Origin: a virus
DNA: 22,413 nt
Direction: 5' to 3' (one strand)
IMG/VR virus record: IMGVR_UViG_3300034117_000358
Location: 1-22,413 of that record
In this document: one piece after another, positions 2,485-13,078 of the stretch
Numbering within the stretch: the first letter of the stretch is position 1
Layout: each line of letters opens with the position of its first letter
The notes under the pieces: model-generated
Told to the model about the DNA's origin: nothing
What the model saw: only the letters and a program-made list of their open reading frames with translations
The model's database searches: none
Made by a program: the position numbers and the translations under genes

Positions 2485-4260
2485 TTAAAATTTACTGTCA
2501 TCTAATAGGTTTTTTTCGTCTAAAAGGTCTGATTTTTCTGATTTTTCACTTAAAATCTTCTTTTTTGCCGAAATACCATTGAGATATTGTTGTGCTATTT
2601 TTTTATTTGATTCGTTAGTTCTAGTTTCTCTCTTTCTCTCTTTCTCATTTTCTTTATTTCCCAATGGGTCTCTACCTAATGGATGTTTATCTTTTCCATA
2701 AGTATTTCCCTCTCTTGGTCTACCACCTTTATCCACAATCTCCTGCTTCATTTTTTCAATTTCCTCCTCAACATTTTGTTGTTGTGGTGGGTTAGCCGGG
2801 TCTTGTCCTTGCTGTTCAATTGAATTATAACGGAAACGGTCTTTAAGGTCTAATACTAATTTAGCTCTTTCCATATCCATTTCATCTTCACTCATTCCAA
2901 ATACATTATGGTAAACCCAATCAGTAGATAACATATTTAATCCCTTCATATCGCTTGCTAATCTAACTTTCTCACTCCAAAGATTTACTTTCTCTTGCTC
3001 ATATATTGTAGAAGCGTTAGTTAAAGTAAGTTGGAAGTTTGTCATTTCTGAATCATCAATACCTTGTCCAGCCAAATGAACGATTGCAATCTTATATAAT
3101 TCACTAACGATTGTTCTTTGAATTCTTTCGATTGTTCTAGCAAAACGAACATCTTGTGCTGCAAGAGTTGCTTTACCATTCACATCTTCTTCATATCCTA
3201 AAAAAGCTTTAGGTATCTTAAGTGCTGCAAATAATTTAGCCTTTAAGTAATCAATATCCTCTACTGCTGAATACTCTAATCCAGATAAGTTATCAATTGA
3301 TGTTCCACTATCTCCACCTCTAACAGGTAAGAAAAAATCTTCCGTAAGGTTTTGAATATTGTATTTTAAATTGTAATCACCAGTATTCTTATCAACAAAT
3401 GGAGTTTTCTTCATTTTGTTGATAATCTTTTGCATGTAGTTATCTACTTCATTAGGATTAATATTACCAATATCAATTTTGAATATTCTTTTTTCAGGAG
3501 CTCTCATAATACGATGGATTAGCATCGCATCTTCCATTAATTGTAATTGTTTCCAAACTCTACGGCCGTTCTCAATCATAGCCTTACCATATGGAAGAAA
3601 GTTTGTATCTGAAAGTAAACGGAAGTGGGCAATTTCATAGTTCTCATATTCCTTTTTACCAAATCTATCTAATTCAACCTTAAACTTAACGTAGTTTTGA
3701 TTCATTGGGTCAGTACCTTCTAATCTTTCCGTATTATATACAGAATATGGAGTTACATTAATAATACCCTTTCCTTCTGCCATTTCTAATGCTAAAAAGA
3801 AATCTCCGTATTTTACAAGGTTTCTAGTCCAAGGCCAAAGGTTAAATTCTATGTTTATAATATCATAGAATAAGTTATGTAGTATTGCACTTACATTTTC
3901 GTTTGATGATTTGATTGTTAATATATCACCATACTCATTCTTTGTTGTTGATTCATCCGAATATATATCTAATGCTGATGCTATAATCGGGTCATTATCC
4001 ATAGCATCATAATCTCTAAATAATTCTCTACGAACCTGATGATATGCCATTGATTGTGCACCCTGATTGGTTTCATAGTATGACCTTTGTAACTTTGTAT
4101 ATCTATCTCTTAGATTTACGAAGTTTGTATTCATTTGTTTTTCATCCGTATCAACAACTCTACGCTTACCATCTTTATCAACGGTAACAATAGCATTTGT
4201 TGAGAATAATTTCTTTAGTCTACCAAAAAAACTCCTATCATCTATTTCTTGTTCTGCCAT
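2485..4260 (-). CDS. 20: Portal vertex protein, T4 gp20-like
   Basis: The portal forms the dodecameric ring at one capsid vertex through which the terminase pumps DNA, and it nucleates prohead assembly. The 591-residue protein shows the gp20 pattern: an N-terminal region with DPIIASALDIYSDE (about 90-105), the central RRVWKQLQLMEDAMLIHRI helix with the following RAPEKRIFKIDIG strand, EDFFLPV, and the stem/clip helix region with LKIPKAFLGYEE and the downstream DVRFARTIERIQ. T4 gp20 is about 524 residues; the extra length is mainly a polar tail from about residue 500 (PPQQQ, then KGGRPREGNTYGK and an Arg/Glu/Lys-rich segment), probably disordered. The gene follows the large terminase gene by a 71-base gap, matching the T4 17...20 order. 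No Shine-Dalgarno precedes the ATG. Confidence is high. Confidence 0.93.
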   Translation of the reverse strand: MAEQEIDDRSFFGRLKKLFSTNAIVTVDKDGKRRVVDTDEKQMNTNFVNLRDRYTKLQRSYYETNQGAQSMAYHQVRRELFRDYDAMDNDPIIASALDIYSDESTTKNEYGDILTIKSSNENVSAILHNLFYDIINIEFNLWPWTRNLVKYGDFFLALEMAEGKGIINVTPYSVYNTERLEGTDPMNQNYVKFKVELDRFGKKEYENYEIAHFRLLSDTNFLPYGKAMIENGRRVWKQLQLMEDAMLIHRIMRAPEKRIFKIDIGNINPNEVDNYMQKIINKMKKTPFVDKNTGDYNLKYNIQNLTEDFFLPVRGGDSGTSIDNLSGLEYSAVEDIDYLKAKLFAALKIPKAFLGYEEDVNGKATLAAQDVRFARTIERIQRTIVSELYKIAIVHLAGQGIDDSEMTNFQLTLTNASTIYEQEKVNLWSEKVRLASDMKGLNMLSTDWVYHNVFGMSEDEMDMERAKLVLDLKDRFRYNSIEQQGQDPANPPQQQNVEEEIEKMKQEIVDKGGRPREGNTYGKDKHPLGRDPLGNKENEKERKRETRTNESNKKIAQQYLNGISAKKKILSEKSEKSDLLDEKNLLDDSKF

Positions 4261-4331: not shown

Positions 4332-5927
4332 CTACAACCATTGGGATAAATCTTCAAATCCATCGCCAACTCTCATTTTCCAAGGGTTATCATCTCTAAA
4401 ATCACCGCCACCATATATTCCTTGAGATGCGTTTGATGTTATACCACTTACTGCTTGCTTTGTTAAATCAATACCTTCTTGTCTTAAACGAAGTGCAGTA
4501 TCTCTTACCCAAAGTCCAATTGAAAATGCCATTACTAAGTCATCATTATAACCCTTCATAGCTTCAGCTCTACCATTCATATAGATAAATGTAAATAATT
4601 CATCTATCAAACGAGAAGAACGAACAACTACAGCTTTTTCTCTAAAGTAATCAGTTAATTTAGATATGATTAACGGACGGGTTTTAGAAGTGGTTGAAAA
4701 ACCAGCTACCAATCCCTTATCTTCTGCTCTATACCTATTTGACATTTGATTCTCAACATCAATATATTTCAAATCCTTACTCATATAGAATAAGTTTTTA
4801 TATCCTCTATCAATTACTTGCTGAATTGTTGCCCAACCAATATTTGCGTTCTCTACTACAAGCAATGCATCATTGTATTCAGTTGAAAGTGCTACTAAGA
4901 AGTTTCCAAAATCTTTTGTATCAACTTTACCTTTATATTCTGCTACTTGACTTGAATTAATTATATCAATTACATGACAAGTTGAATAGTCACCACCATC
5001 ACCTCTAGCCACATCGGCCACAACCATATATGATTTAGAATAATCAGCATGCTCCCATTTCCAAAGATTTCCATCAAATCCACCCTTCTCAATTGGTTCT
5101 TGAATATATGTTTCTTTATAAAACATTAATAATTCAGGTTCAATTACAGTTTCACCAGAAGATACAAAATCGCAATCACATTCTTGTGCTGCTTTCTTTA
5201 CACCTAATAATTTCTCTTGTTCATCTCTCCATTTTTGGTCCCTTTCAGGATGTACTGTCCAATGTAATCTGATTGTATTAAATGGATTTCTACTTTCTTC
5301 TGCACCAATCCAAGTTTGGTGAAACCAATTACCCACACCATTCGGAGTAGATAGTGCAATACAGCTACCACCCGTTGATAGGGTAGATTGCGCTGATACC
5401 CAAATCTCATCGATATCATCAATGAAGGCGGCCTCATCGAATATAAGAAGTGATAAGGCTTCCGAACGTCCTGCATCAGGAGAGGAAGCAATAGCCTTAA
5501 TTTGAGAACCATTTTGTAAACGAAGGGAAAGTTTGTTATCTTCCATAGACCCACCCTTAAGCCATGTTGGGAGCAAATCATGCATTACTCTAACCTTTGT
5601 TACTAAGTTTTTTGCAACCTCTTGCTTTGTTGCAATTACCAACACATTAAAATCGGAATTGAATATCATTTTCCAAAGTGAAAACCCAGCACAAAGTGTT
5701 GAGATACCAGTTTGACGTGATTTCAATACTACATTAAATCTATTATCTTTAAATTGAGTTAGGGTTTTTTCCTGAAATGGAAATAATTGAAAAGGTATCT
5801 TACCTCTAACAGGGTGCTGAATCATACAATACTTCTTCATAAAATGTATCGGGTCTACCGCACATTTTTTATATTCTTCTGCAATAATCTCTTTTAGAGA
5901 TTTCTTTTGTGTTATACCAGTACTCAT
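4332..5927 (-). CDS. 17: Terminase large subunit, T4 gp17-like ATPase/nuclease
   Basis: This is the DNA-packaging motor and headful nuclease. The 531-residue protein has both domains. ATPase: LKSRQTGIST (68-77) is the Walker A region; the usual GKT lysine is replaced by Ile, and Lys69 at the start of the loop probably supplies the charge, as in other terminases with a shifted lysine. LLIFDEAAF (160-168) is Walker B with the catalytic Glu, and ALSTPNG (191-197) is the coupling motif. Nuclease (RNase H-like): VVADVARGDGGDYS with Asp305, VVENAN with Glu359, and YNDDLVMAF with Asp462/463, which together would bind the metal ions. CDFVSSGETVI (252-262) is the typical domain junction. T4 gp17 is 610 residues, so this is a slightly short family member. 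It begins one base after the stop of the preceding gene, implying coupled translation. Confidence is high. Confidence 0.95.
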   Translation of the reverse strand: MSTGITQKKSLKEIIAEEYKKCAVDPIHFMKKYCMIQHPVRGKIPFQLFPFQEKTLTQFKDNRFNVVLKSRQTGISTLCAGFSLWKMIFNSDFNVLVIATKQEVAKNLVTKVRVMHDLLPTWLKGGSMEDNKLSLRLQNGSQIKAIASSPDAGRSEALSLLIFDEAAFIDDIDEIWVSAQSTLSTGGSCIALSTPNGVGNWFHQTWIGAEESRNPFNTIRLHWTVHPERDQKWRDEQEKLLGVKKAAQECDCDFVSSGETVIEPELLMFYKETYIQEPIEKGGFDGNLWKWEHADYSKSYMVVADVARGDGGDYSTCHVIDIINSSQVAEYKGKVDTKDFGNFLVALSTEYNDALLVVENANIGWATIQQVIDRGYKNLFYMSKDLKYIDVENQMSNRYRAEDKGLVAGFSTTSKTRPLIISKLTDYFREKAVVVRSSRLIDELFTFIYMNGRAEAMKGYNDDLVMAFSIGLWVRDTALRLRQEGIDLTKQAVSGITSNASQGIYGGGDFRDDNPWKMRVGDGFEDLSQWL

Positions 5928-6663: not shown

Positions 6664-9309
6664 TTATTTTGCGAAGAAAATACCTAAAATTTGATTTAGG
6701 GGTGCAAATGCACCTGTTAATTTATAAGTGTTACCACCATATACGAATACTAACCCCTCATTTGGTACAATTTTATCAAATCCACCCAAAGCTTGCATTC
6801 TACTTAATTCTAATTTAAGTTTTGCAATCTTTTTAGGGTCACCACTTGCTTTAACATCAGCTATTGTACTTTCCAAACGAGCTAACATTTGTTTAGTAGC
6901 TTGTTTTGGATTTGCTGTTAGTACCGAATCCATAAATGATAAAACGTCTGCACCAACTCCTAAAAATATCTCCTCAAATCTCATTAGATTTTGTTTTGAT
7001 ATTTTAGCTTGGTCATTCTTATCAGTTGAATCTGCCCATTTTTGTATTTTAGGGTCTTTTATATCTGCTATACGGAAACTCTTGTCACCAAAAGCCCATC
7101 TCTTTACTAATCCTATTTTTTGTTGTGCATCCAATCCCTTTGCATTCTTATTTACAAAGTTTGTCCACCAAGCTTGATGATAATCAGCTACTCCCGATTT
7201 ATCATTTAATGCAAATTCAGATTGTAATTTAGTTATCATTGCTAAATATTTTCCTTGTAATTTAGAAAGGTTTTCTGATTTAGGCAATTTTTGCATTGGG
7301 GGTCCCTGAATTGTGTACTTAGATTGAACGTGTGCATTTACTTGCTTAATCATACCACCTAATACTTTTGCAGCTTCTTGATTTTCCCCAACTATAACAC
7401 CTTCTTTATCATATTCGAATGTACCATGAAATACTAATAGGGGTTGATTGTATGGAATTACGTTTACAGAGGTTGGATATATTACTTCTAAGTTCATAAA
7501 ACAAGCGCCATCTTTAAATACCTTTTTTCTTTGTGGTTCAGATAACGCAGATATTGCTGCTGATAAATCTTTCATTGCGAAATTATATGCGTCTGTCAAT
7601 CCACCCCTACCACCAAACTTTTCAGCTACTTGTCCTATTGTCATAGCACCCTCACCTTTGTTCTTTAGATGCGATTTATTACGAGCTGCAACTAATCTTC
7701 CATTTACCCAACTAATTGCTAATGCTTGTCCATCAGTTTTTTCTCTTACAGTTTCCAAATCACCATTTAGTGCTTTAGTTACAATATTTTTTAAATCTGC
7801 AAAAGTAAGATTCATTTCAATATCAAATGGATGGTTCATATGCCCATAAGCACCACCTTCCATTATTAGAGATTCTTTTATAAAATCATTAGGAGCTTTT
7901 AAATCATGCTTTAATATACGATTGTACTTATCGGTTGTATCTTTGTGATTATCTATTGGTAATTTTTGGTCTACTGCTTTTTTCTTTTCTCTCTCAGATG
8001 GTATTTTATCAAAGAAATCCCAACCTTCTAAGTTATCTAAATAGTATCCTTCATTATCATAATCATCCCAATTTGCATTCCATTGAGTACCGGTTGTTGA
8101 ATTACCATCATTGTAGAAGGCTCCATTACCACTTGCTTCAGCTATACTATCACCTTCAATACTTGATAACTTTTCATAATAGTTAATATCTTCCCATAAA
8201 TGGTCCATAGCGATTTCAGTTGCAATACGAACATCAGTTGTATGTTCCATTTCAACTTTAATACCCTTCATTAATTTAGGTTTGATATATTCTGCTGCAA
8301 ATTGTTTTGGTTCATAGTATCCTTTCTCATCATACTTCTTAGCCAAATCAATTAGCGTTTTACCTTTTGCTAAACCACCAGGAATTTTATCTTCATCAAT
8401 CTCCTCATATCCACTCATTCCTTTGTTGTTAAGTTTCTTACTATTCTTCTTAACATCTTTACTATCAGGTGCTCCATTAATATATCCACCCGGCAAACTT
8501 AAACCTACACCGGCACCGCCAGGCAATCCCATTTCTTTTAATGTATCTTTTTTAGGAATTCTGAATGTTACTGCTTTTTTACCATTGATTGTTGGCATTC
8601 CCCACTCATCTTCACCAATATTTTTAACAACTACTTTTTTATTTTTGAATTTACCCATTAATAGAGTATCACCAACTTTTACGTTTAGTTTAATTTCTTC
8701 ATTAATACATTCTTTTAAGCTCTTTAACTTAAGAGTAATTAATTTGAATATTTGGTCATCAAACTTTGGATATGCTTTTGTAAAGTTTTTCTTTCTATCA
8801 GCTGCACTTCCTGCACTTAACCAATAACGAACATCCGTACCACTAATAGGATTTGATGTAGCGGGTGCTGCATACACATATCCTCTATCTAAATAGGGTT
8901 CAGTTATTTTTCCTTTATATGGAGTAAAATACTTACCACTTAAACGATTTTCATCTTTCTCACCAACTACAACTATTAAACCAGTTGTATCCTCATCATA
9001 TTTATTTAGAATTTCTTCAGGTGCATAAGGATTTTTAATATTAACAATTTTGTTTGATGGAATACCAAACATAGTTGTCATTATTGCTTTCTTTTCCTTA
9101 AAATTAAATGGAGATTTTTTTGAATCGGTAACATTAGAAGTTCCGATATATACGCTATCCTTTCCGAATTTGCGTACTAAATTATCATAAGTTGCGTAAT
9201 GGCCCTTATGAAAAGGTTGAAAGCGGCCCGAATAAACAACAACTACTTTGTTTATGGAATCCGCTTCCAACAATATTGATTCTACTAAAAACTTTGCTAA
9301 TCCTTTCAT
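6664..9309 (-). CDS. Multidomain protein: NadM-like nucleotidyltransferase, DUF5661-like domain and ligase-like nucleotidyltransferase
   Basis: This 881-residue protein has at least four parts. Residues 21-165 form a HIGH-superfamily adenylyl/cytidylyltransferase: SGRFQPFHKGH (27-37) and ISGTDVR (155-161) resemble NMN adenylyltransferases of the NadM type. Residues 205-252 form a small beta module (KVGDTLLMGKFKNKKVVV). Residues 306-382 (KIPGGLAKGKT, EMEHTTDVRIATEIAMDHL) match my memory of DUF5661. Residues 485-881 carry ligase-superfamily motifs: EKTDGQ with candidate nucleophile Lys524, AARNK (541-545), FMNLEVIYP (604-612), EGLVF (851-855) and YKLTG (862-866). The peptides FLVESILLEA (7-16) and FIKESLIMEG (476-485) match each other and fit T4-type targeting/cleavage sites ([L/I]-x-E before A/G). 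The protein may therefore be packaged and cut by the gp21-like protease. Neither the substrates nor the processing is known; both enzyme calls rest on motifs. Confidence 0.82.
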   Translation of the reverse strand: MKGLAKFLVESILLEADSINKVVVVYSGRFQPFHKGHYATYDNLVRKFGKDSVYIGTSNVTDSKKSPFNFKEKKAIMTTMFGIPSNKIVNIKNPYAPEEILNKYDEDTTGLIVVVGEKDENRLSGKYFTPYKGKITEPYLDRGYVYAAPATSNPISGTDVRYWLSAGSAADRKKNFTKAYPKFDDQIFKLITLKLKSLKECINEEIKLNVKVGDTLLMGKFKNKKVVVKNIGEDEWGMPTINGKKAVTFRIPKKDTLKEMGLPGGAGVGLSLPGGYINGAPDSKDVKKNSKKLNNKGMSGYEEIDEDKIPGGLAKGKTLIDLAKKYDEKGYYEPKQFAAEYIKPKLMKGIKVEMEHTTDVRIATEIAMDHLWEDINYYEKLSSIEGDSIAEASGNGAFYNDGNSTTGTQWNANWDDYDNEGYYLDNLEGWDFFDKIPSEREKKKAVDQKLPIDNHKDTTDKYNRILKHDLKAPNDFIKESLIMEGGAYGHMNHPFDIEMNLTFADLKNIVTKALNGDLETVREKTDGQALAISWVNGRLVAARNKSHLKNKGEGAMTIGQVAEKFGGRGGLTDAYNFAMKDLSAAISALSEPQRKKVFKDGACFMNLEVIYPTSVNVIPYNQPLLVFHGTFEYDKEGVIVGENQEAAKVLGGMIKQVNAHVQSKYTIQGPPMQKLPKSENLSKLQGKYLAMITKLQSEFALNDKSGVADYHQAWWTNFVNKNAKGLDAQQKIGLVKRWAFGDKSFRIADIKDPKIQKWADSTDKNDQAKISKQNLMRFEEIFLGVGADVLSFMDSVLTANPKQATKQMLARLESTIADVKASGDPKKIAKLKLELSRMQALGGFDKIVPNEGLVFVYGGNTYKLTGAFAPLNQILGIFFAK

Positions 9310-9758: not shown

Positions 9759-10907
9759 TTATAAGAATTTTTTCAATTCATTTATAACCATTTCGGAAGT
9801 TATTGATTTGGTACATTCAAATTGACGTTCCGTACCCTTATGGTCAGGACACCAATTCCAATCACCAGCATCCAATCTAATTCTGTTAAAGCAACCCTCA
9901 CATTTTCCTTTAGGTGCCGCAACTCTATAACAATCTTGCATTTCTGCCCAATCATAGGAAAATCCACTAATTAAAACAGTTGGTACATTTAAAGACCAAC
10001 TCAACCAACTCAACCCACTTCCAATACCAATAAATGCTTTTGATTTTAACATTTCATCCATTACCAATTCTAATGGGCCATTTGGGTGCTTAATTATTCC
10101 TTTTGGTAATTTATTTCCCATATAATCATCACCCTCTTTGGATACTAATTTAACTGTATATCCTCTTTCCTTTAACCAATCTACTACATCTTGCCATCCC
10201 GTTGGGTTATTCCAAAATTTAGATTGTGCAGTTCCAAATACACCAATACAAACTTGTTTAAGGCTTGGGTCTATTTTAACATTTCTTTTTTTAATTAAAG
10301 TTTTTACTTCTTTAAAATCTAAACCTAATATATCAGAACACATTTTTTGCATTGTTTGTGTTTTTGGGTCTATTGGATTTTTAAAGAAATTTATAGAACT
10401 ATCATCATTATAAAACAACCCAACACAATACATTGCGTATAAATTTTCAACAGCTTTGCCAGGCTCTACAAATTTTACATTAGGATATCTTTCTTCAAAC
10501 ATATGATTCATAAATGTAGAAGTTATAACTTCACACTCATGTTGTTTTCTAAACTCCTCAACATATGAAACCCAAGCTAATGAATCTCCTAAAGCCTTTG
10601 AATCCATTGCGATATAAACACGCTTACCTTTTGCATTATAAACATATTCGTACCATATTTTATCATTTTGATAAATAACAATTTTCCATTCTACAAAATA
10701 TTCTATACTACATTTACACCAACAATTATTTTTTATATTTGTAGAATAATGTACCTTTCCAGTTTTATTATCTATAAATTTAACTGTATATTCAGAATCT
10801 ATATTTCCTTTAATTTCAACATATGGTCCTTTAACAAAATGAATTATCACTTTATTTTTTACCTCAACTATATTATTTTTATTTTTCTTTAAATTATCGT
10901 ATATCAT
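9759..10907 (-). CDS. TibC/AAH-like O-heptosyltransferase (BAHT family) with a four-Cys metal site
   Basis: It should transfer a heptose-like sugar from a nucleotide donor to serine/threonine or another acceptor. Bacterial relatives (TibC, AAH) modify autotransporter adhesins and bind iron through four cysteines. The 382-residue protein has an N-terminal beta-rich domain (1-95), then MDSKALGDSLAW (101-112), a GT-B donor region with IGIGSGLSWLSW (293-304) and VLISGF (311-316), and the metal motif: Cys336, Cys339 (KCEGC), Cys353 (WNWCP) and Cys365 (QFECTKS). I chose the ATG at 10907 because it overlaps the upstream TAA stop by one base and has GGAG just before it; a TTG nine bases further upstream is less likely. 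The N-terminal third is visibly even more AT-rich than its neighbours, hinting at acquisition. The phage acceptor is unknown: fibre, capsid and host surface are all possible. Confidence 0.85.
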   Translation of the reverse strand: MIYDNLKKNKNNIVEVKNKVIIHFVKGPYVEIKGNIDSEYTVKFIDNKTGKVHYSTNIKNNCWCKCSIEYFVEWKIVIYQNDKIWYEYVYNAKGKRVYIAMDSKALGDSLAWVSYVEEFRKQHECEVITSTFMNHMFEERYPNVKFVEPGKAVENLYAMYCVGLFYNDDSSINFFKNPIDPKTQTMQKMCSDILGLDFKEVKTLIKKRNVKIDPSLKQVCIGVFGTAQSKFWNNPTGWQDVVDWLKERGYTVKLVSKEGDDYMGNKLPKGIIKHPNGPLELVMDEMLKSKAFIGIGSGLSWLSWSLNVPTVLISGFSYDWAEMQDCYRVAAPKGKCEGCFNRIRLDAGDWNWCPDHKGTERQFECTKSITSEMVINELKKFL

Positions 10908-13078
10908 TAACTCCAAGTTTTAACTGTTAAATCTAATAAAGAGAATCCCTCTGCTTGCTTACTATATACTTTGTTTGTTGTATATCTTAGTCTTGGGTGA
11001 TTTATAAATACATGATTATACCAAAGGTCACCAACATCCCAGCCACAATCTACCAACCTATCCATCCACCATTGTTTCTCTCTATTAGGAATTAAATAAC
11101 AATGTGCAAGGTCTTGATTTGCTGCTGTCTTTGAAAACAACTCATCTATTTTTTCTTTTTCTCTTGATGGATTATCTGCAAATGATATGAATGGTACATT
11201 ATCTCTCTCTGATAAGAAACATGCTCTATGTACTATTTCAACAAATTCTTCCAAACCAGTATAGATAAATGCATCGGCTTCAAATACCAAAGTGTAATCA
11301 AAGTTTCCAGTATCCATCGTTTCCAATGCCATTCTATGTGCCAAATAACAGCCATAGTGTCTACCAGTCATCCAACCTAAACCAGCACCAGGGTATAATT
11401 CTCCCGGCTTATTATCTTTACTTATATGTTCAGGTCTTCTACAATTTTCAGCAGGTGCAAATCCTTCATATGGTTCATTTACAATTGGTTCGTAATACAT
11501 ACCATATTTTTCTAATTGTTTGATAGATTGAATAGATACTCTTTCTCTCATATCATCCGGCCTAGTCAACATATGTTTTATTTGAATACGAGGCTTTTTA
11601 CGAATGAATGAACGAAATCCTTTATCAAACTGCTCATAGAAAAATTCATTTGCAGCTTGTGTTACTCCGTGAAATACTGTATAATCATCTCCACTAATAA
11701 TTCCACCTGGCTTTACTTTGTTGTACCAAACTTTTACATCTTCCATTAAAGAATCGTAAGAATGTCCAGCATCTAACATAATAAAATCTATACTACCATT
11801 TTGAAATTGATTAGCTGCATTATGTGAAGTATCTTTAATTGTATCAAATGTACCATAGTTATCTGATAAGACTGTATTATCTATGAATTCATAAAATATA
11901 TCTCCATTAAATGTGCCAACAATATTTTGATGCAATTCTTCATCATCAGTTCCTTTCCAAGTATCTACGCTTGTGAATTTAATATCTTTACCAGACTCTT
12001 TAATTTTTGTTGCTAAATGATTTGTTGATTTACCAAACCATGCACCCACTTCTACAAATGTTTCACCACCTTTAGCGGATTCAACCATTTCATTATATAA
12101 ATCAGTATATGCAAACCAACCAGGTATTTCATTAAATTCAGGTTGTAGTGTTTCTAATATAACTCTCTTAGTTAATTTTAAATCATCGTTAATATAAGTT
12201 ACTAATGAATTATTATCGTATGTATCTAAATAGGTGTGTAATTTTCTAAATATAGAAGGTAGTTTATATGATAGAGCTTCTTTAACTGATAATGGATTTA
12301 ATTCTATTTTAGATGCAAAATAAAACATATCACTTGCTGCATAGAATGTATCAACATCAGTCCTCTCACCCCATATGACACAATTTTCAGGTTTATAATC
12401 CATTAAAGGTCTCCAATAGTGTTCAAAGTTTCCAGCCTGATTTCCTACAAAATGAAATTTAATTTTATATTTTTCTAATTGTCTTGCTATTGAAAATATT
12501 TCACCTTGATTTTTACCTGGTGCAAATAAACCAACATTAAGTACATGCTTCCAAGTTGGGTCTAATCCCAATTCTTTTTGGGCCTCCTCCTTATTAAATT
12601 CATATTCTTCAATTGGATATTCCCATATATCAGTTTCAACGCCGGTTTCAATAAATCGTTGTCTACTCCATTCAGATACTAAAATGTACCTATCAGGATG
12701 ATAAGCTATTTCAGATGGATTTGTTAATGAACCATGTGTAGATGCTACAATAAAATAAGGTCTATCTTTTCTAAAAATAACGTCTAATGCAAATAATGGT
12801 AAATCAAATTGTGGTATTTCCTGAAAATGAATTATATCAGGTTTAAAATCCTCAATAATTTGTAATATTCTAGATTTATCTTCTGCTAATGTATGTACTG
12901 GTACTAACGACTTTATTCTATTTTTTTGAACCACAAAAGCATTTCCACCACTATTGTTTATTTCAACAACTTCAATTTCAAAATCTTTTATGAATTCTTT
13001 TACCTGCTTATATAGGTATTGCGGTTGACCCCCAGTAGAAAGATGCGGAGCAACATAAAGTAACTTCTTTTTAGACAT
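10907..13078 (-). CDS. Trifunctional fusion: GT4-like glycosyltransferase, SAM methyltransferase, GT25-like glycosyltransferase
   Basis: The 723-residue protein joins three enzymes of glycan synthesis. Residues 1-305 form a GT-B glycosyltransferase: GGQPQYLY (16-23) near the N-terminus, NVGLFAPGKN (181-190), and an E-x7-E pair, Glu259/Glu267 (ELNPLSVKE), typical of GT4 enzymes. Residues 320-485 are a class I methyltransferase: FVEVGAWFGKST (341-352, SAM loop), VDTW with Asp372, and FIMLDAGHSYDS (432-443), close to the Methyltransf_24 type. Residues 505-723 look like a GT-A/GT25-type transferase: GRHYGCYLAHRMA (572-584) and LVFEADAF (597-604), where EAD replaces the usual acidic triplet. The gene is preceded by a good Bacteroidota-type promoter and its stop overlaps the start of the heptosyltransferase gene, so the two form an operon. 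Family calls are firm for the first two domains and moderate for the third. Confidence 0.86.
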   Translation of the reverse strand: MSKKKLLYVAPHLSTGGQPQYLYKQVKEFIKDFEIEVVEINNSGGNAFVVQKNRIKSLVPVHTLAEDKSRILQIIEDFKPDIIHFQEIPQFDLPLFALDVIFRKDRPYFIVASTHGSLTNPSEIAYHPDRYILVSEWSRQRFIETGVETDIWEYPIEEYEFNKEEAQKELGLDPTWKHVLNVGLFAPGKNQGEIFSIARQLEKYKIKFHFVGNQAGNFEHYWRPLMDYKPENCVIWGERTDVDTFYAASDMFYFASKIELNPLSVKEALSYKLPSIFRKLHTYLDTYDNNSLVTYINDDLKLTKRVILETLQPEFNEIPGWFAYTDLYNEMVESAKGGETFVEVGAWFGKSTNHLATKIKESGKDIKFTSVDTWKGTDDEELHQNIVGTFNGDIFYEFIDNTVLSDNYGTFDTIKDTSHNAANQFQNGSIDFIMLDAGHSYDSLMEDVKVWYNKVKPGGIISGDDYTVFHGVTQAANEFFYEQFDKGFRSFIRKKPRIQIKHMLTRPDDMRERVSIQSIKQLEKYGMYYEPIVNEPYEGFAPAENCRRPEHISKDNKPGELYPGAGLGWMTGRHYGCYLAHRMALETMDTGNFDYTLVFEADAFIYTGLEEFVEIVHRACFLSERDNVPFISFADNPSREKEKIDELFSKTAANQDLAHCYLIPNREKQWWMDRLVDCGWDVGDLWYNHVFINHPRLRYTTNKVYSKQAEGFSLLDLTVKTWS

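Follow-up and report, generated by a model that had tools for sequence, protein, structure and literature searches.

A candidate packaged polyprotein with predicted head-protease sites at its module borders in a virus with T4-type head genes

Why a bacterial virus should carry, in its block of head genes, one long chain of enzyme-like modules set apart by short peptides ending in glutamate is the question raised by IMG/VR record IMGVR_UViG_3300034117_000358. The window analyzed here is the whole stretch of 22,413 nucleotides (positions 1 to 22,413 of that record) and encodes an 881-aa open reading frame (ORF) on its minus strand at 6664-9309. A first-pass annotation, which gave no strand for the gene, had suggested a packaged polyprotein in which two nucleotidyltransferases are separated by head-protease sites. 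Comparison with related genes points the same way, and the 881-aa protein is probably a precursor that is packaged and then divided into separate proteins by the head protease. By analogy with the relatives described below, the first 10-15 residues would act as a capsid-targeting sequence (CTS) that brings the protein into the prohead core, and the co-encoded gp21-type protease would remove this tag after E10/E15. The same protease would also cut between modules, after [I/L]xE: at the least at E479/E484, ahead of the ligase-like domain, and probably at the motifs IAE↓A and INE↓E (the arrow marks a predicted cut). The nucleotidyltransferase, the small modules including DUF5661, and the ligase-like enzyme would be freed inside the head and presumably enter the host with the DNA.

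The three peptides singled out by the first-pass annotation were all present in the translation where it had placed them, namely FLVESILLEA (residues 7-16, 9262-9291), FIKESLIMEG (residues 476-485, 7855-7884; possible cuts E479↓S480 and E484↓G485), and IAEA (residues 389-392, 8134-8145). The pattern F[IL].ES[IL][IL].E matched at residues 7 and 476, and two copies were obtained in 0 of 20,000 shuffles (mean 0.0001). The bare four-residue motif [IL].E[AGS] is a weak signal by itself because its five occurrences, compared with 1.6 in shuffles, were reached in 39 of 2,000 shuffles. The proposed resemblance to the T4 CTS held as to kind, an N-terminal tag ending in [L/I]xE, and required correction as to place: the tag is better read as MKGLAKFLVE at residues 1-10 (9280-9309) than at residues 7-16, with possible cuts at E10↓S11 and E15↓A16. 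The form of a CTS, a peptide of ~10 N-terminal residues ending in [L/I]xE, was found in both MKGLAKFLVE↓S and ILLE↓A and is comparable to the N-termini of T4 IPII and IPIII and of cyanophage GC190.

Behind the tag, an HxGH-type nucleotidyltransferase domain occupies residues 24-195 (8725-9240), matching PF01467 (CTP_transf_like; residues 25-161, E 1.2e-7, 32.4 bits against a family cut-off of 21) and phrog_395 (E 8e-13). It is followed by the candidate site INE↓E (residues 202-205, 8695-8706) at the border of a VGDT module (approximately residues 205-253, 8551-8697), which appears SH3/KOW-like by eye and has no Pfam match, and by DUF5661 (residues 346-385, 8155-8274; PF18905, E 4.8e-8). A variable middle lies between the named modules, and the Pfam scan of the protein identified no peptidase family. 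The last 396 residues (486-881, 6667-7854) contain EKTDG, EGLVF, and YKLTG, which we take to be ligase-type motifs, and EK.DG, EG.VF, and YKLTG were conserved in alignment A3. This ligase-like domain had no Pfam family, and a profile search against the PDB returned no convincing match (best E 0.082, to a short stretch of an unrelated protein). Its HxxHP and KxDG motifs could be aligned with cyanophage GC71, but the profile match was non-significant (E 0.11, probability 0.5%) and homology to GC71 is therefore not claimed. The first of the two nucleotidyltransferases in the first-pass annotation was borne out by PF01467, and the second is a putative nucleotidyltransferase/ligase assigned by its motifs.

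Relatives of the window protein retained these features across divergent sequences. At least 589 IMG/VR stretches encode relatives, of which the best 80 were kept, and 37 distinct full-length proteins were reduced to 33 representatives with <90% identity to each other. M1, L4, L8, E10, L13, and E15 were invariant across the 34-sequence alignment, and the residue after E15 was alanine in 31 of the 33 representatives. Ahead of the ligase-like domain, all 33 representatives had Glu at both -1 and -6 together with I/L at -3, and E↓GGAYGH was kept in all 59 distinct contexts listed, despite several upstream sequence types. The IAE↓A module-head pattern gave 13 matches among the representatives, all with E at the position before the predicted cut (P1) and I/L at P3, and with A, T, Y, or Q directly after it (P1'). 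As in gp21 substrates, [IL]xE[AGS] sites lay outside the folded domains: 49 in the short N-terminal segments (shuffle 5.5) and 82 in the middle (26.6) whereas the nucleotidyltransferase had none (5.1) and the ligase-like domain, truncated in L030, had 6 (19.6), these being non-independent events because the representatives are related, and the single conserved site ahead of the ligase-like domain supplying 33 of the 82. One module tail (e.g., SPSDFLKE) joined various heads and one head (e.g., AT[AS]SE) joined various tails, with a Glu where they meet. When block borders were tested blind, the outcome was mixed: 33 of 319 block ends lay near strict sites (random 8.9, sd 3.2), and 30 of 273 block starts lay within 6 residues of sites (random 15.0), although none fell within 2 residues. 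Two apparent natural splits were not used as evidence, as the L071 ORF starts 99 bases from the end of its stretch without a clear start and the L030 ORF (338-3565) is interrupted by a single in-frame stop within its ligase-like domain.

A second set of loci was built on the Microcystis phage Mel-JY01 (PP395634.1). Upstream of the terminase and head genes, this phage encodes a 639-aa protein in which a nucleotidyltransferase is fused to a ligase-like domain, and IIAE↓GG marks the border between them, the predicted cut lying before GGLGGH. The best 80 of 304 IMG/VR relatives of this query were combined with two loci from a query with phage LR756500 (one matching the LR756500 gene exactly along the query), giving 82 loci and, after two too short were set aside, 80. 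The ligase-like domain was preceded by [IL]xE in 73/80 loci (39 of 41 distinct 11-mers). The homologue alignment that the first-pass annotation had proposed as a check thus found the site kept in both sets while the flanking modules changed. In the 19 complete second-set proteins, the first 30 residues contained 14 sites against a shuffled 1.1 and the middle 61 against 21.0, whereas the ligase-like domain had 2 where shuffles gave 7.4. The tag M-x(1-4)-KLT-x-[WY]L...L-x-E was followed by differing first modules: a nucleotidyltransferase in L246 (43% identity to the window from the tag through the domain end), a VGDT module in L192, and an APRVPRKKGQ module in L229. The VGDT module stands directly behind the tag in L192, where tag end and module were identical to window residues 198-249 at 33/52 positions, a segment that is internal in the window protein. 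L220 has a related N-terminus, MSLELLVNEIVKPFIQE, ahead of an AAA_33/zeta-toxin-type P-loop domain. Domains found beside the nucleotidyltransferase in second-set chains included PF05618 zinc-protease-like (L246:122-3730) and P-loop AAA_33/zeta-toxin (L220:899-4033, L229:542-4810). Three similar genes (L097; Mel-JY01 60276-60923, 60923-61102, and 62056-62715) open with MIKL.SL..E followed by ISDRVWH[LV]T.

The gp21-like protease that had been reported in the same block was confirmed at 3-449 on the minus strand (PF03420, E 1.2e-24), its gene being cut by the window end. It shares the strand of the 881-aa gene with the T4-type portal protein (2485-4260, PF07230, E 8.1e-66) and the terminase large subunit (4332-5927, PF03237, E 5.7e-12), in T4 head-gene order, and a PF03420 protease was present in 5/5 related genomes searched. 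A complete relative of the protease was matched at G005:1941-2414. The rule given for T4 in PMC9026906 is that gp21 cuts after L/I-X-E. A gp23 site LL[DSK]E↓A or LISE↓A was identified in six records (G001, G002, G004, G006, LR756508, and Mel-JY01), and the same pattern search recovered no gp23 in G003, G005, or LR756500. As these sites resemble FLTE↓A of T4, the head protease of this group likely has the same specificity as T4's. Elsewhere in the window, a 723-aa protein (10907-13078, minus strand) has glycosyltransferase-like and methyltransferase-like parts by eye.

Virion data are available for a related nucleotidyltransferase family. The putative cytidylyltransferase T4-GC190 is described in PMC3037559 as an experimentally determined virion protein and a cyanophage core protein; it was first detected among the 41 proteins identified by mass spectrometry in Synechococcus phage S-SM1, an earlier S-PM2 study having missed it. 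GC190 corresponds to phrog_395 (E 5.9e-129), the family matched by the window nucleotidyltransferase, and the S-SM1 protein opens with MKKFSAFLNE↓A. Among 160 GC190-related genes from IMG/VR (the best 80 of each of two queries), a tag was present within 16 residues of the start in 145 (47 of 53 distinct N-termini), and 13 of the 15 untagged relatives had been translated from a Met further along (MASQQAKQMG), downstream of a GTG start codon that is annotated in S-CAM9. GC190 also has a site, LRE↓A, before its following module; unlike the window protein, it is 387 aa long and unfused to DUF5661 or a ligase-like domain. GC71-GC190 fusions, suspected from phrog_455, were 0 among the 160 ORFs by a motif test.

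The modules also occur as separate genes in the huge phage LR756500 (462 kb), where the ligase-like domain is encoded on its own. Its product begins MKFLKSYEEFLNENLILE↓GGSYGH, and the part just before the predicted cut corresponds to the internal peptide of the window protein. Genes for PF01467 (E 1.8e-7) and DUF5661 (E 2.3e-10) follow in a row on the same strand, and the ligase-like and DUF5661 genes are tagged in the form [YF]xxF[ILVM]x[ED]. This pattern occurred in the first 20 residues of 22/621 LR756500 ORFs (shuffle 1.46; internal-Met control 1.1), of which one looks like chance. The 22 include a leucine-rich-repeat-like family of four, five weakly linked ORFs, and 13 without detected similarity. 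A tag common to several unrelated proteins of one phage, a further mark of a CTS, was clear in LR756500, and the 22 are predicted to be a packaged set. Many of these N-termini (LR756500.1, L122-L145) read MKYIxxYxxF[LIV]xE on otherwise different proteins. Applied to ~150 kb of T4, the same pattern found 2/226 ORFs, IPII and IPIII. A search for the VGDT module in LR756500 gave nothing convincing, the best match (E 0.0069) being in an ORF other than the tagged neighbor.

A third arrangement was found in the huge phage LR756508, in which a 914-aa chain combines a ParB-like part (phrog_4715, E 1.5e-6; Pfam ParB_N under its cut-off), a nucleotidyltransferase, and a ligase-like part. Its strict sites fall at residue 18, near the N-terminus, at residues 128, 357, and 494, between mapped domains, and at residue 724, inside the ligase-like part. 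GGAYGH is absent, and the site at residue 494, SLDE↓S, precedes the ligase-like HLRHPF by 16 residues. IMG/VR contained no relatives for the LR756508 query and two for that of LR756500. In the first 320 kb of LR756508.1, a wider tag was present in 28/376 ORFs compared with ~2 expected. Various genes of this region (L146-L161) share the start M[LKR][LF]K.[IL]L.E, behind which comes a [YW]RG-type motif, for example at positions 177696, 182802, 255042, 257837, 263330, 297444, and 299011; these are perhaps a tagged ADP-ribosyltransferase-like effector family. The gp21-type protease match of LR756508.1 is in two halves (156507-156824 and 157830-158102, L153) within one 576-aa frame, the ~335 residues between them being either an intein or an inserted domain.

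Packaging and cleavage, which the first-pass annotation had inferred, thereby gained comparative support in the N-terminus of the unfused ligase-like relative, the tags of LR756500, the presence of GC190 in virions, and the site ahead of the ligase-like domain, which is kept while its flanks change. Several results weigh against a packaged and cleaved precursor. The N-terminal peptide of the window form is absent from the Mel-JY01 fusion, and the LR756500 nucleotidyltransferase gene and that of HTVC008M lack tags of the respective forms sought. Met replaces the P1 Glu (LLLM↓GG) in 7/80 second-set loci (2 distinct 11-mers); six of the seven end at a contig edge with unreadable N-termini, and the seventh, L251, bears the tag. 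These were single losses, and no homologue in which both ends were readable kept the domains and lacked both peptides, the finding that the first-pass annotation had said would speak against its proposal. The GC190 gene of S-SM1 lies away from the head genes, and block starts fell within 2 residues of strict sites in 0/273 cases (random 7.4). The LR756500 pattern misses T4 IPI and Alt and is therefore specific rather than sensitive. AlphaFold models were too poor to judge exposed linkers (mean pLDDT 48.7 for the whole protein and 58.3 for the ligase-like part). Frequent tag use was also not evident in the group to which the window belongs, where a broad tag class was weak in G001 (6/327 vs. 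4.7 shuffled) and gave 3/31 vs. 0.5 in G003 and 4/33 vs. 0.4 in G006, matches among which are the family protein and a scaffold-like gene. Likewise, [IL]xE[AGS] was weakly enriched in G001 both genome-wide (194 vs. 149.8, sd 13.3, shuffled) and in the first 25 residues (23 vs. 16.3, sd 4.6). MIKLTNIL[NK]E opens two unrelated G001 proteins (240564-240998 and 1909-2625; L095 and L083), and the zinc-ribbon-like module of the second was also observed inside some chains.

Part of this counter-evidence would suit a protein that is packaged and left uncut inside, the tag being trimmed after loading, the fused enzymes staying one polypeptide, and the internal peptide being either a relic or a linker that belongs to the ligase-like domain. 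T4 Alt is described as processed at its two ends (PMC9026906), the internal peptide adjoins the conserved GGAYGH and could belong to the fold of the ligase-like domain, and the P1 Glu has been lost in the seven second-set loci above. A relic would be expected to decay, yet P1 and P3 were kept in every one of the 33 representatives, LR756508 without GGAYGH still has its SLDE↓S site ahead of the ligase-like domain, and several other module borders are also marked by sites, so this alternative is considered unlikely.

It is rather improbable that the protein is never packaged and is an enzyme fusion working in the infected cell, in RNA, NAD, or nucleoside diphosphate (NDP)-sugar metabolism, with the peptides as conserved linker helices. 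Nucleotidyltransferases of the same superfamily are common phage enzymes, with matches annotated as nicotinamide mononucleotide adenylyltransferases, and we know of no virion proteome for the window's group. A jumbo-phage survey gives such nucleotidyltransferases roles in NDP-sugar supply (PMC7824862). Against this stand the virion location of T4-GC190, the closest family with such data, the same kind of N-terminus in most GC190-related loci, and the location of the 881-aa gene next to terminase and portal within the head block, as in Mel-JY01. Short Glu-rich linkers that happen to fit [IL]xE↓[AGS] would account for the modest excess of the bare motif in the window protein; chance is nevertheless very hard to credit given the peptide pair that no shuffle reproduced, the conservation across changing flanks, the tag class of LR756500, and the second-set counts.

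For the packaged and cleaved precursor, we infer loading, cutting, and ejection, as well as the task of the enzymes. That task is perhaps nucleic-acid or cofactor repair, or counter-defense, at entry, as suggested by chains that hold nucleotidyltransferase, ligase-like, and, in the second set, P-loop kinase-like domains; NDP-sugar supply is another possibility. A broader proposal, for which the chances appear about even, is a cargo cassette delimited by the head protease, in which one tag loads a train of effector modules that are freed in the prohead, swappable at the cleavage sites, and injected in equal doses, in at least three lineages. These would be the window's group, the Mel-JY01-type group, and the huge phage LR756508. 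As the modules are bounded by [IL]xE, recombination at cleavage sites could insert, delete, or exchange them without harming their neighbors.

Elements of such a system are already known, namely CTS loading with gp21 trimming in T4 (as described in PMC9026906) and packaged multidomain phage proteins (in the account of PMC5512222). T4 IPII/IPIII and Alt (PMC9026906) share with the present case a ~10-residue tag ending in [L/I]xE, a gp21-type protease in the head block, and, in a relative, the tag on several proteins; each T4 internal protein is described there as one end-trimmed cargo, whereas here the site recurs inside one long chain, between several of its domains. Polyvalent proteins (Iyer et al., 2017, PMC5512222) likewise combine several shuffled effector domains in one phage chain with predicted packaging, and their analogy with viral polyproteins released by peptidases has already been drawn in that work; their release is attributed to peptidase domains embedded in the chain, which are common in such proteins but not universal, whereas the window protein has sites for a separate head protease. 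In phiKZ and SPN3US, packaged proteins are also cut after Glu by a gp21-type protease, but the phiKZ motif is S/A-X-E and the cutting is described in PMC9026906 as propeptide removal. In the openly accessible journal literature searched, no chain cut by a separate head protease at sites delimiting swappable modules was found.

If the packaged and cleaved precursor is correct, the T4 scheme, in which proteins are tagged, loaded, and trimmed, would extend to a modular polyprotein, and phages could inject sets of enzymes in a fixed ratio. It would also provide a simple sequence rule to predict the head-borne proteins of uncultured phages and may offer a reason for the presence of a cytidylyltransferase in cyanophage virions.

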